The translations under genes and the position numbers were made by a program. DNA of 12,319 nucleotides from Acetobacteraceae bacterium (GTDB lineage: Bacteria; Pseudomonadota; Alphaproteobacteria; Acetobacterales; Acetobacteraceae), in NCBI GenBank assembly GCA_003164305.1, contig PLSZ01000287.1, positions 380 through 12,698 of the forward strand, in the 5' to 3' direction. The notes under the pieces were generated by a model, which saw only the letters and a list, made by a program, of their open reading frames with translations, did not search any database and was not told the origin of the DNA. This document shows positions 2,569-11,643 of the stretch, one piece after another. Position 1 is the first letter of the stretch. The number at the start of each line of letters is the position of its first letter.

Positions 2569-3540
2569 GTGTCGGAACTGGAAGCGAGCCTGTCTCAGGG
2601 TTTGGCGCTGCATCGTCTGGGACGGCCGGACGAGGCGGCGCGGATTTATCAGGACGTGCTGACCCGATCGCCGGATAACTTCGACGCGCTGCATCTTCTG
2701 GGCGTGGCGGCGTTGCAGTCCGGCCGTGTCGAGTTCGGCATCGCATCGATCCGGAAGGCCATCGAGTTAAACGGCTCCGTCGCCGCCGTTCACGTTTCCC
2801 TCGGCAATGGGCTGCGTGACCTCGGGCGTCCGCTGGATGCGCTCGGGAGTTATGACACGGCGATCTCGTTGGACCCGGACAACGCGCAAGCCTGGCACAA
2901 TCGGGGCAACGCTTTGGTGGACCTGGGGCGAGACGAAGCAGCGATCGGCAGCTTCGACCAGGCACTCTTGCTGCGTCCCGATCTCGCGGAAGCGTATAAC
3001 GGACGGGGTAGCGCGCTATGGCGATTGAAGCGGCCCGATGACGCGATCGAAAGTTACGACAAGGCGATCGCTTTGCGGCCGGATCTCGTGGAGGCGTATC
3101 ATAACCGCGGCAATATTCTGCCGTACTTAAACCGGTTCGATGAGGCGCTGGCGAGTCAGGATAATGCTATCGCGCTGCGACCCGGCCTCGCGGAGGCGAA
3201 TAGCGGGCGCGGCAACGCGCTGTGGGAACTGGGGCGGCCGGAGGAAGCGCTCTTGAGCTATCAACGCGCGATTTCGTTGCGACCTGGTTATACGGACGCT
3301 TACTGGAATGCCAGTCTTTGCATGCTGCAACTCGGGCATTTCGCACAAGGCTGGCGCCTGTTCGAGTGGCGAAAACAGCTTGCCGAGCCGATGGGATCGC
3401 GCGTGTCGCCGCGTCCGTCATGGCTCGGCGAGCAGGACATCTCCGGCAAGACACTGCTCTTGTACTGGAACAAGGACTGGGGGATACGATACAGTTCTGC
3501 CGCTATGCCAGGCTCGTGGCGGCACGCGGCGCGCGGGTGA
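2569..3540 (+). CDS. 5' fragment: eight-TPR region of the split glycosyltransferase
   Basis: As read, this frame encodes 323 residues. Residues about 4-275 are eight consecutive 34-residue TPR-like units; units 3-7 carry the repeated signature NRGNAL..LGR..EAI.SYD.AI.L.P, and unit 8 is the divergent form ending GWRLFEWRKQ that leads into the transferase domain in this family. The match to the family ends at Trp300 (codon 3466-3468). The last 23 residues, from NKDWGIRY to the TGA at 3538, are out-of-frame and have no counterpart in module 2. TPR arrays bind partner proteins or the protein substrate. Start GTG 2569 has a six-base spacing to GGAAG. It follows mlaC by 86 bp on the same strand; a functional link to lipid transport is not shown. 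Truncated here, it would lack any catalytic domain. Confidence 0.75.
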   Translation: MSELEASLSQGLALHRLGRPDEAARIYQDVLTRSPDNFDALHLLGVAALQSGRVEFGIASIRKAIELNGSVAAVHVSLGNGLRDLGRPLDALGSYDTAISLDPDNAQAWHNRGNALVDLGRDEAAIGSFDQALLLRPDLAEAYNGRGSALWRLKRPDDAIESYDKAIALRPDLVEAYHNRGNILPYLNRFDEALASQDNAIALRPGLAEANSGRGNALWELGRPEEALLSYQRAISLRPGYTDAYWNASLCMLQLGHFAQGWRLFEWRKQLAEPMGSRVSPRPSWLGEQDISGKTLLLYWNKDWGIRYSSAAMPGSWRHAARG

Positions 3541-3542
3541 CC

Positions 3543-5591
3543 ATGGAGGTGCAGACATCATTATTTGGATTGCTCCGTGACTCGTTCCCGGGGATCGAGG
3601 TCATAGCGCCGGGACAGGAACCACCCCAGTTTGATTTCCACTGTGCGTTGATGAGCCTGCCTTTGGCGTTCGGGACGACGGTCGATACGATTCCGTCGGA
3701 ACAGCGATACATCCAGGCCGGGAAAGACAGGCGCGCGCTTTGGTTGGATCGGCTCGGGTCGGTGACGAAACCGCGCGTCGGCGTGGTGTGGGCTGGCGGC
3801 GCGGCTTACAAAGGCGACCATAAACGGTCGGTCGATCTGGCGACCTGCCAGCCGTTGTTCATTGCGAACGTCGATTGGATTTGTTTGCAACAGGAACTCA
3901 GCGAGCCCGACGCGGAGGCGCTCCGCCAAACCAATGAACCGAGATTTTTTGGCGGCGAATTGCACGATTTCAGCGATACGGCGGCGCTGATCGATGTGCT
4001 GGACCTGGTGATCACGGTCGATACCAGCGTGGCGCACCTGGCGGGCGCCATGGGCAAGCCCGTCTGGATCTTGCTGCCATACAGCGCGGATTGGCGATGG
4101 TTGCGAGACAGAGACGACAGCCCATGGTATCCGTCCGCCAGATTGTTCCGGCAGCGGCAGGCGGGCGATTGGACCGACGTGATCGAGCGTGTGGCAGGCG
4201 CTTTGCGTTCCTGGCTAAAGGGTCGTGACGATGCCGCGCGGAGCTGGTTCCGGCACGGTAATACGTTCTTAGCCCAGAGGCGGCCCGAGGATGCGATCGT
4301 CAGTTACGATAAGGCTATCGCACTCAACCCCAGGGATCCGAACCCTTATATCAACCGGGGCAACGCGTTGCTGCGGGTTGCTCGCCACGCGGACGCCATC
4401 GCCAGTTACGATGCCGCGATCGCGGTGCGACCCGACGATGCGATCGCGCATCATAATCGAGGAAACGCTCTGCTGGATCCGCGGCGTCCGGCGGAGGCGA
4501 TCGAGAGTCACGATCGCGCGATCGCGTGCAAGCCGGATAGCGCGGAAACCTACGCCGCGCGCGGCAACGCTTTGTGGGAACTGCGCCGCCCGGAAGCAGC
4601 CTTCGCCAGTTTTCAGACGGCGATGGCGCTGAAGCCCGGTTATGCCGACGCTGGATGGAACTCTGGGCTGTGCTTGCTGCGAATGGGACGGCTGGAACAA
4701 GGCTGGCCACTGTTCGAATGGCGCAAGAAGCTCGACCGGCATCCGTCCAATCGATCCTATCCGCGGCCGCTCTGGTCGGGTGAGCAGGATATCCTGGGCA
4801 AAAATTTGTTCATTTATTGGGAGCAAGGGCTCGGCGATACGATTCAGTTCTGCCGTTACGCGGCATTGGCGGAAGCTCGCGGCGCCAGGGTGATCATGGA
4901 AGTGCAGCCGAGCTTGCGCGGATTGCTGACCCAAATCGGCGCCTCGATCCAGATTATCGTTCCGGGTGAAGAACCACCGGAATTCGACTTCCACTGTCCG
5001 ATGTTGAGCCTGCCGCTGGCGTTCCGCACGACAGCCGGGACGATCCCGGCGGCGGCGCGTTACCTCCGGGCTGAGCCGGAGACGCTGGCACGATGGTCGG
5101 AGCGTCTGGGACCGCGGAAAAAACCCAGGATTGGGGTGGCGTGGAGTGGCAGCGCGGGCCACCGGCACGATCACAATCGGTCCATCGATCTGGCGCGCTT
5201 TTCATCGCTGTTCGCCGCTGACGCCGAGTGGATATGTCTGCAGAAAGAGCCTCGCCCTGATGATCGCCTGCCGGAACAACTCGCGCTCTTTGGCGATGAA
5301 CTCACGGACTTTACTGAAACCGCGGCGCTGGTGGAATTGATGGACCTGGTGATCTCGGTCGATACGAGTGTCGCGCATCTGGCGGCGGCGTTGGGGAAAC
5401 CGGCGTGGATTTTGTTGCCGTACAGTCCCGATTGGCGTTGGCTGTTGGATCGATACGACAGCCCGTGGTACCCCACAGCGCGATTGTTCCGGCAACGTGG
5501 TTTTGGCGACTGGCGCGGCGTACTCGACGAAGTGACGCGCGCGCTAACGGCAGAATGCTTTGGCCGCCTCAATATCCCGGCAGCTCGTTGA
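3543..5591 (+). CDS. 3' fragment: GT9-like domain, five TPRs, second GT9-like domain
   Basis: This is the continuation in the other frame. Matching family sequence resumes at EQGLGDTIQFCRYA (from about 3468), upstream of any good start, so the fragment is a remainder and not an independent gene. The best internal start is ATG 3543, three bases after the stop of the first piece; a GTG at 3537 overlaps that stop as GTGA. It encodes the rest of transferase domain 1 with VDTSVAHLAGAMGKPVW near 4018-4070, TPR-like units from about 4234 to 4740, and transferase domain 2 ending in VDTSVAHLAAALGKPAW near 5359-5410 and a C-terminal WRWL.RYDSPWYPTARLFR tail that also ends domain 1. The GT-B C-terminal nucleotide-sugar site motif is like Glyco_transf_9. 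The 3' end overlaps the convergent histidine phosphatase gene by 23 bp. Substrate unknown; a role in surface or protein glycosylation is inference. Confidence 0.72.
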   Translation: MEVQTSLFGLLRDSFPGIEVIAPGQEPPQFDFHCALMSLPLAFGTTVDTIPSEQRYIQAGKDRRALWLDRLGSVTKPRVGVVWAGGAAYKGDHKRSVDLATCQPLFIANVDWICLQQELSEPDAEALRQTNEPRFFGGELHDFSDTAALIDVLDLVITVDTSVAHLAGAMGKPVWILLPYSADWRWLRDRDDSPWYPSARLFRQRQAGDWTDVIERVAGALRSWLKGRDDAARSWFRHGNTFLAQRRPEDAIVSYDKAIALNPRDPNPYINRGNALLRVARHADAIASYDAAIAVRPDDAIAHHNRGNALLDPRRPAEAIESHDRAIACKPDSAETYAARGNALWELRRPEAAFASFQTAMALKPGYADAGWNSGLCLLRMGRLEQGWPLFEWRKKLDRHPSNRSYPRPLWSGEQDILGKNLFIYWEQGLGDTIQFCRYAALAEARGARVIMEVQPSLRGLLTQIGASIQIIVPGEEPPEFDFHCPMLSLPLAFRTTAGTIPAAARYLRAEPETLARWSERLGPRKKPRIGVAWSGSAGHRHDHNRSIDLARFSSLFAADAEWICLQKEPRPDDRLPEQLALFGDELTDFTETAALVELMDLVISVDTSVAHLAAALGKPAWILLPYSPDWRWLLDRYDSPWYPTARLFRQRGFGDWRGVLDEVTRALTAECFGRLNIPAAR

Positions 5592-9389: not shown

Positions 9390-10595
9390 TCAGTTCGGCA
9401 AGAACGGTACCGGGACGAAAAAGCGGCCGCCCACCGTTTTCAGGGCGTTGTTCTCGCTTTTCAAGGCGGCCTCACGGAGAGCGATCAGCATTTGGCCGGC
9501 GACGGTCTTTCGCCAGAACCACCAGTCGATCTGCCGCGCGGATGGCGGAGGACCGTCAGCCTGCACCGCCTCCCCATACAGCGCTTTCAGGTCGTCGGCC
9601 AGAAATCGCAACGCCAAAGCCGGTGTGTCGTGCGAAGGCACGGTCGGCAGCGCCCCGTCCAGGAATGATGTGGCGAACGCCGGCCAGTCCTCGGGCGGTT
9701 GGCCGGCGAGGCCCACCGATGTGCGCCCGAACCGCGCCTTGAACCGCTCCCACACCGGCAGCACCAGCGCAAGTTCAGCCTGGAAGGCGGATCGCCAGGC
9801 CGCCGCCTCGTGCAATGGCGCGGGCGGAGACAAGGAGACGGCGGGCGTCCAGTCGGGCCGGTCGAACCAGCTTGGATTGTCGTCCGGGAAATGCTCCAGA
9901 AGCACGGGTCGATCGGTGCGTTCCAGCAGACGCAGCGCCTGAAGCAGGACGCGGCGCTGGAACGGCGCATCGTTGGGTTCGCCCAACGGCCGGCCCAACA
10001 TGAAAGGCAGCATCAGCGCGCGCGGCGGTTTTGTCTTTTCAACCTGCGGCAGGACCAGGGCGAGAACCGTCGTCGGCAGGCCGCGTTCTTCCAACATATG
10101 TGCCATCGCGCTCACGGCGCGGGTGCACAGCGGTCAGACCGGGGCCAGAACGACGGCGTTGCAGCCCTCGGCCAGCAATCCGGCCGCGATCCCGTCCGCC
10201 GATTCCACCATCGCGGCGGGATCGGTGGAGCCCATGATCGTGTAATGCGTGCTGGTCACGCCACCGATCACGCCCTCGGCCGCGAATTCGCGCAGCCGGT
10301 CGATCGGGTAGACAACGTTGACGTCCCGCTGAAAGCCGGCGCGATCGAAGTTGATCGATACATGGCTGATGAGGATTTCGTCGTTGCTCCAATCGCCGGG
10401 CACCGCGCGGTATTCGCCGGAGCCGAACGGAAATGGCTTATCGCCGCGATGGATCAAAGCGGCGCTGCTGACGATCGCGACGCGCCGCTGAGACAAAGGC
10501 GGACCGGAGACGAATGGCGTGGTGTCGAAGCTCGGGCACGGAATGCTCGCCACGGCGGTGCGGGTCGGCTCGGGGATGTCCTCAAGTCTTGCCAT
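9390..10595 (-). CDS. Selenoprotein of the GrdB/PrdB (glycine/sarcosine/betaine/D-proline reductase B) family, Sec encoded by TGA at 10136-10134
   Basis: Read from ATG 10595 the frame stops at TGA 10136-10134 after 153 residues, but continues open to TGA 9392-9390. The two parts are one family domain: RRVAIVSSAALIHRGD near 37-52, the ISHVSINFDRAGFQRD stretch near 76-91, NVVYPIDRLRE, STHYTIMGSTDPAAM near 115-129, then VVLAPV-U-PLCTRAVSAMAHMLEERGLPT spanning the TGA, and a C-terminal part with FMLGRPLGEPNDAPFQRRVL and WWFWRKTVAGQMLIALREAA. In GrdB and PrdB the residue at the TGA is the catalytic selenocysteine in a U/C-x-x-C motif; here Sec154 with Cys157. A SECIS-like hairpin follows at once. 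Total 401 residues. The substrate is unknown: no PrdA, GrdA or GrdE is nearby. DUF3830 lies 43 bp upstream in the same direction, so they form an operon. Alternatives: a TGC-to-TGA nonsense mutation or error. No strong Shine-Dalgarno precedes 10595. Confidence 0.8.
10099..10136 (-). promoter_or_regulatory. Bacterial SECIS-like element immediately after the in-frame TGA
   Basis: Starting at the TGA (10136-10134), four unpaired bases precede lower stem TGTGC (10129-10125) pairing perfectly with GCACA (10103-10099). A 3x3 internal loop (10124-10122, 10106-10104) leads to upper stem CGCGC (10121-10117) pairing perfectly with GCGCG (10111-10107). The apical loop is CGTGA (10116-10112). The loop begins 17 nt after the TGA, its first two bases include G, and it holds a GT step. 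These fit the known bacterial SECIS geometry (loop about 16-37 nt after the UGA, short GC-rich upper stem, G early in a small loop). It would recruit SelB-GTP-Sec-tRNA. Confidence 0.75.
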
Positions 10596-10638: not shown

Positions 10639-11055
10639 TCAGGCGGGGGCGGAAAACACGATAGCCTGCGCGCCGGACCAAAGCACCAGTTTCCCGAGGC
10701 TGGCGAGATTTTCGTTGCCTTCGACCACGGTCAGAAAATGGTTGCCGGCGAGCTGCCCCATTTTGCTGGCGAATTGCACACCGCCGTACGCCAGCAAGAT
10801 TTCGGTTTCGCTGATCCCACCAGGGTAAAGCAGGATTTGCCCCGGCGCCGGGTAGCTGGTGTGGTTTTCAAAGCCGAGGCCGAGATCGAGATCGCCGAGC
10901 GGGATCCAGCAGGCTTCGCCGCTCCAGCGGACGTGGATGATGCGTTCGTGATAGGGCAGCAACCGCTGGAAGCGCGCGCAGGTTTTCGGCGCCGCGGCAT
11001 CCTCGAAACGAGCGGTGAACTGAAACGGTCCAGCGGTGATTTGGATCAGGCTCAT
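10639..11055 (-). CDS. DUF3830 family protein (cyclophilin-like fold)
   Basis: A 138-residue soluble protein. From ATG 11055 it reads MSLIQITAGPFQFTARFED, then APKTCARFQRLLPY near 22-35, and the block characteristic of DUF3830: HVRWSGEACWIPLGDLDLG (41-59), ENHTSYPAPGQILLYPGG (63-80) and ISETEILLAYGGVQFASKMG (81-100), followed by GNHFLTVVEG. The early APKTC.RF..LLP segment resembles the start of cyclophilin-like beta-barrels. No enzymatic function is established for the family to my knowledge. The start 11055 is chosen because it begins directly at the conserved domain and has GAGAG about eight to nine bases upstream; the frame extends to 11265 but those residues look non-coding. It precedes the selenoprotein gene by 43 bp on the same strand, so it may be a partner or share a substrate; this is inference. 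Confidence 0.85.
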   Translation of the reverse strand: MSLIQITAGPFQFTARFEDAAAPKTCARFQRLLPYHERIIHVRWSGEACWIPLGDLDLGLGFENHTSYPAPGQILLYPGGISETEILLAYGGVQFASKMGQLAGNHFLTVVEGNENLASLGKLVLWSGAQAIVFSAPA

Positions 11056-11643
11056 GCGTGGGTCTCTCGCTGGATCGGGTCTTGGGGAGCGGTGGGGGTT
11101 GGTCGAGGGCAATCGGCCAAACCTAACCGCGGAGGCGCCGCGCCGCAAACCGGGGGCAAACGGGGAACGATCGAGCCGCCCGCGCTGCCGAAAGCCCCGG
11201 GGGTTCGTGGCCTGTGGTTCCCCGAGGCGGACGGGACACAGCGCCATCGGGTGGGCGTTTGGCATCGGCGCCGATTTTTATGGGGAGATTGGGAGGTGGG
11301 GAGCATGGGAGGTGACACGGGGATCCTTCGCTTTGCCGGGAGGCGCTACCTCCCCTCCCCGAAGCGGCCGAAAGTGCCCCGCGATCACGGCACCAGTTCC
11401 CGCGACGGGGGTGATATCGCGAGGTCTGGTACCCTCCCAGCCTCCCTGCGAAAGTGCCAGCCGCCCACCGTCACGTCGCCAGTGGCGCACGATCTCCGGG
11501 TGCGCCGCCAAAATCCGGCGCTCCTGGCGGTTGCCCCGGAGAAGCGCCGGTTCCGCCGCGAATCAGCCCCAGGCGAGTCGTGAAGGCCTCGCTCTTGCCT
11601 GCTCGCCCGATTGATCCGACATTCCCACAAAGAGGTGACGCAT
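11056..11643. other. 588-bp stretch without a convincing gene
   Basis: Divergent region between DUF3830 (minus) and grxC (plus). Several frames are open, as expected at this GC content, but none shows a recognisable domain, a good start and a ribosome binding site together. The best candidate is minus 11511-11278, whose first 50 residues look protein-like (AHPEIVRHWRRDGG, PVAGTGAVIAGHF) and whose last 25 do not; it could be a remnant. A G-run cluster on the plus strand (11282-11309) fits a G-quadruplex pattern. GGGAGGT at 11307-11313 and ACCTCCC at 11348-11354 form an inverted repeat. No tRNA-Sec or other tRNA could be folded here by eye. Confidence 0.5.

Follow-up and report, generated by a model that had tools for sequence, protein, structure and literature searches.

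An internal TGA in a PrdB-like enzyme gene of Acetobacteraceae, split by gene finders, almost certainly encodes selenocysteine

In the known Grd and Prd reductases, a carbonyl group of a partner subunit is believed to activate the substrate for attack by the selenocysteine (Sec) subunit (PMC10838667, PMC13188914). PrdB, which in clostridia is the Sec subunit of D-proline reductase, counts as one of the most widespread selenoprotein families of bacteria (PMC9312934), and Sec-containing proteins called 'PrdB' are described among the commonest selenoproteins of surface-ocean metagenomes (PMC1088965, PMC2398784), with 42 sequences reported from the Sargasso Sea (PMC1088965) and 235 Sec and 110 Cys forms from the GOS survey (PMC2398784). 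A GrdB-family protein with a predicted Sec and a new proposed substrate is described in the FarB/FarE fluoroacetate reductase of Synergistota, in which the partner lacks the pyruvoyl cysteines (PMC10838667). According to a recent review, selenoproteins are seldom retained in aerobic bacteria (PMC13188914), and in the Alpha-, Beta- and Gammaproteobacteria Sec is reported to serve mainly formate dehydrogenase (PMC8124441, 2021).

Here we describe a gene in a stretch of 12,319 nucleotides from an Acetobacteraceae bacterium (the window; features in Table 1), whose product shares with clostridial PrdB a core of about 200 residues that spans the UxxC site. The window protein differs from PrdB in scoring far below the family cut-off, in having an extra helical C-terminal domain, in the lack of a PrdA family match (a search without a positive control), and in having its relatives among the Acetobacteraceae and other members of their class. 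By their description, to which our comparison is limited, the marine 'PrdB' proteins resemble it in having Sec and a UxxC motif, in their assignment to PF07355 in the GOS table and in being named by similarity. FarB/FarE differs from our locus, in the account of PMC10838667, by its GrdE-like partner, its operon and its anaerobic rumen host. The fdoGHI-selABC(D) clusters of Alphaproteobacteria, as presented in PMC8124441, resemble the genomic islands described below in that the Sec machinery lies beside a selenoprotein gene, which is formate dehydrogenase in those clusters and a PrdB-like protein in the islands.

Table 1. Features of the PrdB-like locus and its surroundings in the window.
Feature	Position	Strand	Basis or remark
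Probable PrdB-like selenoprotein gene	9390..10595	-	401 codons plus stop; no conserved partner gene found adjoining
Predicted selenocysteine, in-frame TGA, codon 154, U of UPLC	10134..10136	-	TGA kept in relatives
Cys157, predicted resolving thiol of the UxxC pair	10125..10127	-	Invariant in a 31-row alignment (A1)
SECIS-like element directly after the UGA	10096..10133	-	Fold, synonymous conservation, pairing in Sec paralogues
SECIS outer stem	10129-10125 with 10103-10099	-	Predicted fold
SECIS inner stem	10121-10117 with 10111-10107	-	Predicted fold
SECIS apical loop CGUGA	10116-10112	-	Predicted fold
PrdB-like core, residues 33-228, predicted alpha/beta domain	9912..10499	-	TIGR04483 match; AlphaFold2 model
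C-terminal six-helix domain, residues 255-401	9393..9833	-	Model; alignment
Upstream DUF3830 gene	10639..11265	-	PF12903, 111.9 bits

The protein matches the Pfam family GRDB (PF07355) with 31.9 bits, above the gathering threshold of 22, residues 82-151 being aligned to positions 275-345 of the 347 in the profile. Its best NCBIfam match is PrdB (TIGR04483; 101.6 bits, E-value 4e-29) over the core given in Table 1, against an equivalog cut-off of 300 bits that is exceeded in none of the 15 relatives' genomes. The scores for the GrdB, GrdF and GrdH equivalogs (45.0, 54.2 and 56.9 bits) also stay below their cut-offs of 602.2, 800 and 775, as does that for the subfamily TIGR01918 (49.5 versus 65.45 bits). 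The first-pass annotation had placed the gene in the GrdB/PrdB family, an assignment that stands at the level of the Pfam family and does not extend to membership of the PrdB or GrdB equivalogs. It had also proposed a stand-alone protein without companion subunits. PF09338, the GrdE/PrdA family, gave no match in the 15 relatives or in 385 genomes of the class, and PF04723 (GrdA) none in the 15 relatives; as no control genome gave a match in these searches, absence of a pyruvoyl partner is likely rather than shown. That the protein is a true PrdB or GrdB subunit of a D-proline, glycine, sarcosine or betaine reductase would agree with the Pfam score and with TIGR04483 as best NCBIfam match, but the equivalog scores far below their cut-offs, the zero partner matches from these uncontrolled searches and the extra C-terminal domain all speak against it, and we consider this identity very unlikely. 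In an AlphaFold2 model of the whole protein (mean pLDDT 90.3), the predicted Sec154 is located just after a strand, at the start of helix 155-170. The C-terminal domain, modelled alone with a mean pLDDT of 93.9, gave no PDB match at E ≤ 0.001 in fold searches, and the alignment shows that it is absent from shorter paralogues of about 310 residues that the relatives' genomes also hold.

The gene is read on the minus strand, as one frame of 401 codons, from an ATG at 10595 to a final TGA at 9392-9390, and its sole internal stop is the TGA of codon 154 (10136-10134). Direct reading of the frame thus agrees with the first-pass annotation, whose prediction that ordinary ORF calling would yield pieces of 153 and 241 residues was reproduced mechanically; the UxxC context APV-U-PLC around the TGA was confirmed as well, and alignment of relatives bore out the conserved sequence on both sides of it. 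The two pieces could in principle be two separate proteins, an N-terminal polypeptide of 153 residues and a C-terminal one of roughly 238. Among the 120 matches listed, out of 823 in the database, 118 are pieces of 231-242 residues, as this reading would have it, and it also agrees with the expectation of some termination at the UGA, which is to be expected in any selenoprotein. Against it, the Cys homologues P0003, P0004, P0123 and P0127 each consist of one full-length chain, both parts share one frame in 15/15 close relatives, the predicted core spans residue 154, and the constraint on the hairpin described below would be left without a role. We therefore give two separate proteins very little credence, and favour a single chain with Sec at codon 154.

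The fate of the TGA was followed in 15 relatives from one scan of GTDB species contigs, with 72-86% protein identity (one of them, L015, being cut at its 5' end), 13 of which are titled as belonging to the Acetobacteraceae group, in line with the proteobacterial host suggested earlier. All 15 have a TGA at the position equivalent to codon 154. The decay downstream of the TGA that had been proposed as a sign against a selenoprotein was looked for, and all 15 frames remain open for a further 240-248 residues to the final stop. The proposed check of homologues for U or C at residue 154 was also made, and U/C154, P155 and C157 are invariant in the 31-row alignment. Among 59 relatives of one of these genomes (G010), each of the 18 full-length copies has one TGA; 12 of these overlap with the 15 above, and in the six new ones the TGA is read at the UPxC motif. 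In a sample of 385 genomes from the class of G010 (Alphaproteobacteria, as inferred from the Acetobacteraceae titles), a match was present in 51. The 35 full-length rows, from 32 genomes, comprise 32 with TGA at the motif and three with Cys codons (TGC, TGT and TGT). Full length was set by us as a row reaching model position 376 or beyond, and at most the best four candidates per genome were scored; this count leaves out G318:C31 (ending at 337, with TGA) and G372 (ending at 345, with TGA and TAA), and also rows matching the core only, which are mostly short paralogues.

A pseudogene or sequencing error, in which the TGA would either end the protein early or be a misread Cys codon, with decaying sequence after it, could explain an in-frame stop, and two distant copies do look damaged, G072 through an additional TAG and G413 through matches in two frames (the latter was kept in the class count, and L115, which represents it in the tree, contained nine stops). 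The retention of the TGA in 15/15, 18/18 and 32/35 copies, the first set with 72-86% identity through to the end, and a synonymous constraint that is highest just after the TGA make such an origin exceedingly improbable. In a tree of 66 chosen rows, which include eight of 15 short-paralogue copies, the window protein groups among Acetobacteraceae MAGs. The clade of long proteins holds 51 Sec and seven Cys rows, the latter in three separate groups. Sec predominates over the whole tree, in which the Sec/Cys label needs four changes, three of them forced by well-supported branches; 17 of the 63 inner branches are weak. The gene thus has an in-frame UGA kept at one codon, with Cys in homologues at that column, as expected for a selenoprotein. 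Two MAG records, L007 and L011, are titled Nitrosovibrio and Candidatus Kuenenia; since the tree places their genes within the Acetobacteraceae group, and their genomes are among the G010 relatives or the class sample, these titles look wrong.

The 38 bases that follow the UGA are predicted to fold into a two-part stem with a CGUGA loop, at -15.8 kcal/mol (z -1.59). This energy is ordinary for this GC-rich gene, being equalled in 8/200 shuffles and in 128/1168 windows of the gene; alone it is weak evidence, and was therefore not relied upon. Codon usage is more informative. In pairwise comparisons of 15 sequences over the first 240 codons, codon identity at unchanged residues is 0.88 for codons 155-171 (13 codons) versus 0.55 elsewhere (105 codons), and the best 11-codon windows of synonymous conservation fall within the same codons 155-171. 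The hairpin is also the predicted fold in 4/4 Sec paralogues and in 0/11 Cys paralogues; in the former the stem sequence differs and the loop is identical to that in the window. In a covariation set of 20 aligned sequences, eight of them distinct, 98.8% of the cells pair, 11 cells are changed on both sides, and the covariation score is 0.471, none of these three values being attained in 500 shuffles, and sliding the partners by 1-3 columns lowers pairing to 65% or less. The remaining two of five covariation measures are matched by the shuffles, namely the number of pairs with a double change (3; as high in 261/500 shuffles) and that of further pair types (7; as high in 491/500), and the double changes represent chiefly one contrast between two clades. 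A stem-loop just 3' of the UGA with a G in a small apical loop, as found here with an energy that is not outstanding, is the feature that PMC1088965 describes for bacterial SECIS elements.

The machinery for Sec insertion was sought in the relatives and in the class sample, so that this evidence concerns those genomes and not the window's own. Matches over the cut-off were obtained in the 15 relatives for selA (12/15), selB (14/15) and selD (13/15), and a tRNA-Sec of at least 64.9 bits in 12/15; ARAGORN likewise found tRNA-Sec in all four scanned selA or selC loci of relatives. In the closest relative, G001 (86% identity), selA was not found and the tRNA-Sec matches did not rise above 47.4 bits; G003 and G011 likewise gave neither selA nor a strong tRNA-Sec. 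The completeness of these three MAGs is unstated. In G004, whose gene order is in large part that of the window, selA, selB, selD and tRNA-Sec are all present. A changed code, in which TGA is read as tryptophan or generally suppressed in the lineage, and for which we found no supporting point, has a negligible probability, given that TGA is also the final stop of the window gene and of its counterparts in 12/15 relatives (TAA or TAG in the other three), that Cys occupies the site in the non-TGA homologues examined, and that the tRNA-Sec has the anticodon TCA in 4/4 selC loci of relatives and in the 11/11 islands scanned.

A separate observation concerns SelB, of which six relatives' genomes (G002, G005, G007, G010, G013 and G015) hold two full-length copies each, from two groups (loci L054, L055, L058-L061 and L067-L072). 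The groups are 37-42% identical to each other and 54-89% and 62-73% within themselves. In each of these genomes a single tRNA-Sec match exceeds 64 bits, besides weaker matches near 47-50 bits. In a quick tree, the SelB of most islands with a PrdB-like gene is nearer to the first group, with mean identities that hardly differ. Two classes of SECIS element would be one explanation.

Reading of codon 154 as Sec agrees with the distribution of selA in the class, where it is over the cut-off in 28 of 29 genomes with the TGA form and in none of the three with the Cys form; of the 356 genomes in which no TGA copy was counted, 28 have it (Fisher p 7e-26). The long TGA form is carried by 28 of the 56 selA-positive genomes. 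The gene and selA are on one contig in 12 of the 28 class genomes that have both, at most about 16 kb apart and with a spacing of about 130 bases in G324 and G232. In 11 of these 12 linked genomes (G335 was left out) we examined the resulting islands, in all of which selA, selB, tRNA-Sec and the PrdB-like gene lie within 4.7-17.0 kb, accompanied by selD in eight. Identities were checked against NCBIfam for selA, selB and selD in L139, selB and selD in L143, and selD in L145. In 10 of the 11 islands, whose annotation is partial, 26 ORFs were scanned, and none is a formate dehydrogenase. The gene and selA are on different contigs in the other 16 class genomes, and, in the window's own clade, in 12/12 selA-positive close relatives. 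The selenoprotein proposed by the first-pass annotation is thus supported by the kept TGA, the Cys of homologues at the same column, the SECIS-like element, and sel genes that in relatives occur together with the gene and in some lie beside it. The hairpin, the added C-terminal domain and this proximity to sel genes go beyond what the first-pass annotation had noticed. We conclude that the internal TGA of one enzyme gene, split by gene finders, almost certainly encodes Sec, and that the gene very probably specifies a single PrdB-like protein with Sec at this UGA.

No conserved operon was found around the gene in the loci compared, in some of which the upstream DNA is short (none in L015, 1084 bases in L002 and 1568 in L011). 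The upstream DUF3830 gene was considered as a partner and rejected as a general link; it is near the gene in just 3/16 loci (the window, L001 and L004), and for this reason is probably outside the system. Two neighbour genes cluster with 2-hydroxyacid dehydrogenases in five loci (by Pfam in L005 and L010 only), and other neighbours include an EamA (L007) and a chlorite-dismutase-like gene (L003). A GST gene adjoins the PrdB-like gene in L011, where it is directly upstream, and in L139; a homologue of the L139 GST adjoins it in L140, and in L007 GST genes are two and three genes upstream. These GST neighbours are a weak hint of a glutathione link in the mechanism. Elsewhere in the window, at 2569-5591, two long overlapping frames on the plus strand (323 and 789 residues) seem to form one repeat protein, TPR-like by eye; such a resemblance to parts of one protein would suggest a frameshift.

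In the proposed mechanism, SelB would bind the hairpin after the UGA, and this binding would cause the ribosome to insert Sec at codon 154, giving a stand-alone PrdB relative with a helical C-terminal domain. As the searches without a positive control gave no activating carbonyl partner, we infer that the selenol attacks a substrate that is already electrophilic: the selenolate, placed where helix 155-170 begins, may attack a small molecule and reductively break a C-N, C-halogen or S/O bond, Cys157 would then resolve the adduct as a Se-S bond, and glutathione or thioredoxin could reduce this bond. A pyruvoyl partner would be unneeded, or an unrelated partner used instead. We put forward this catalysis by a UxxC selenol reductase as a tentative possibility, to which we attach somewhat less than even weight.

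Further PrdB-like copies were observed in several genomes. The 15 copies of the short paralogue that were read (L039-L053), two each in G010 and G014, comprise four Sec (TGA) and 11 Cys forms. A homologous gene follows the short paralogue in 9/15 loci, and in the two scanned it is a CoA-transferase of family III. Our guess is that these paralogues represent the marine 'PrdB' type and the window protein a long type. In five genomes of the class sample (G118, G133, G225, G233 and G396) there are at least four PrdB-like matches apiece, the majority of them containing an in-frame TGA, and in these the family seems to have expanded as selenoproteins.

Since PrdB-like selenoproteins have already been reported, the kind itself is known; the literature searched, which lay mostly outside subscription journals, gave no account of the long type, of the domain at its C-terminus or of PrdB-like sel islands. 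The Cys copies, three of them in genomes where no selA was found, offer a natural test of the contribution of Sec. The gene is easily hidden, as the truncated pieces that dominate the database matches listed illustrate. A long PrdB-like selenoprotein that is linked to sel genes in 12 sampled genomes points to a client of Sec other than the one mainly described for these bacteria. It is conceivable, and we suggest it with considerable reserve, that in many Alphaproteobacteria a selA-selB-selC-(selD) island is the form in which the Sec trait travels and persists, and that such an island mainly serves this two-domain, stand-alone PrdB-like selenoenzyme, of undescribed activity, and not formate dehydrogenase. 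Because annotation splits the gene, a chief reason for keeping selenocysteine in these bacteria may have gone unseen.
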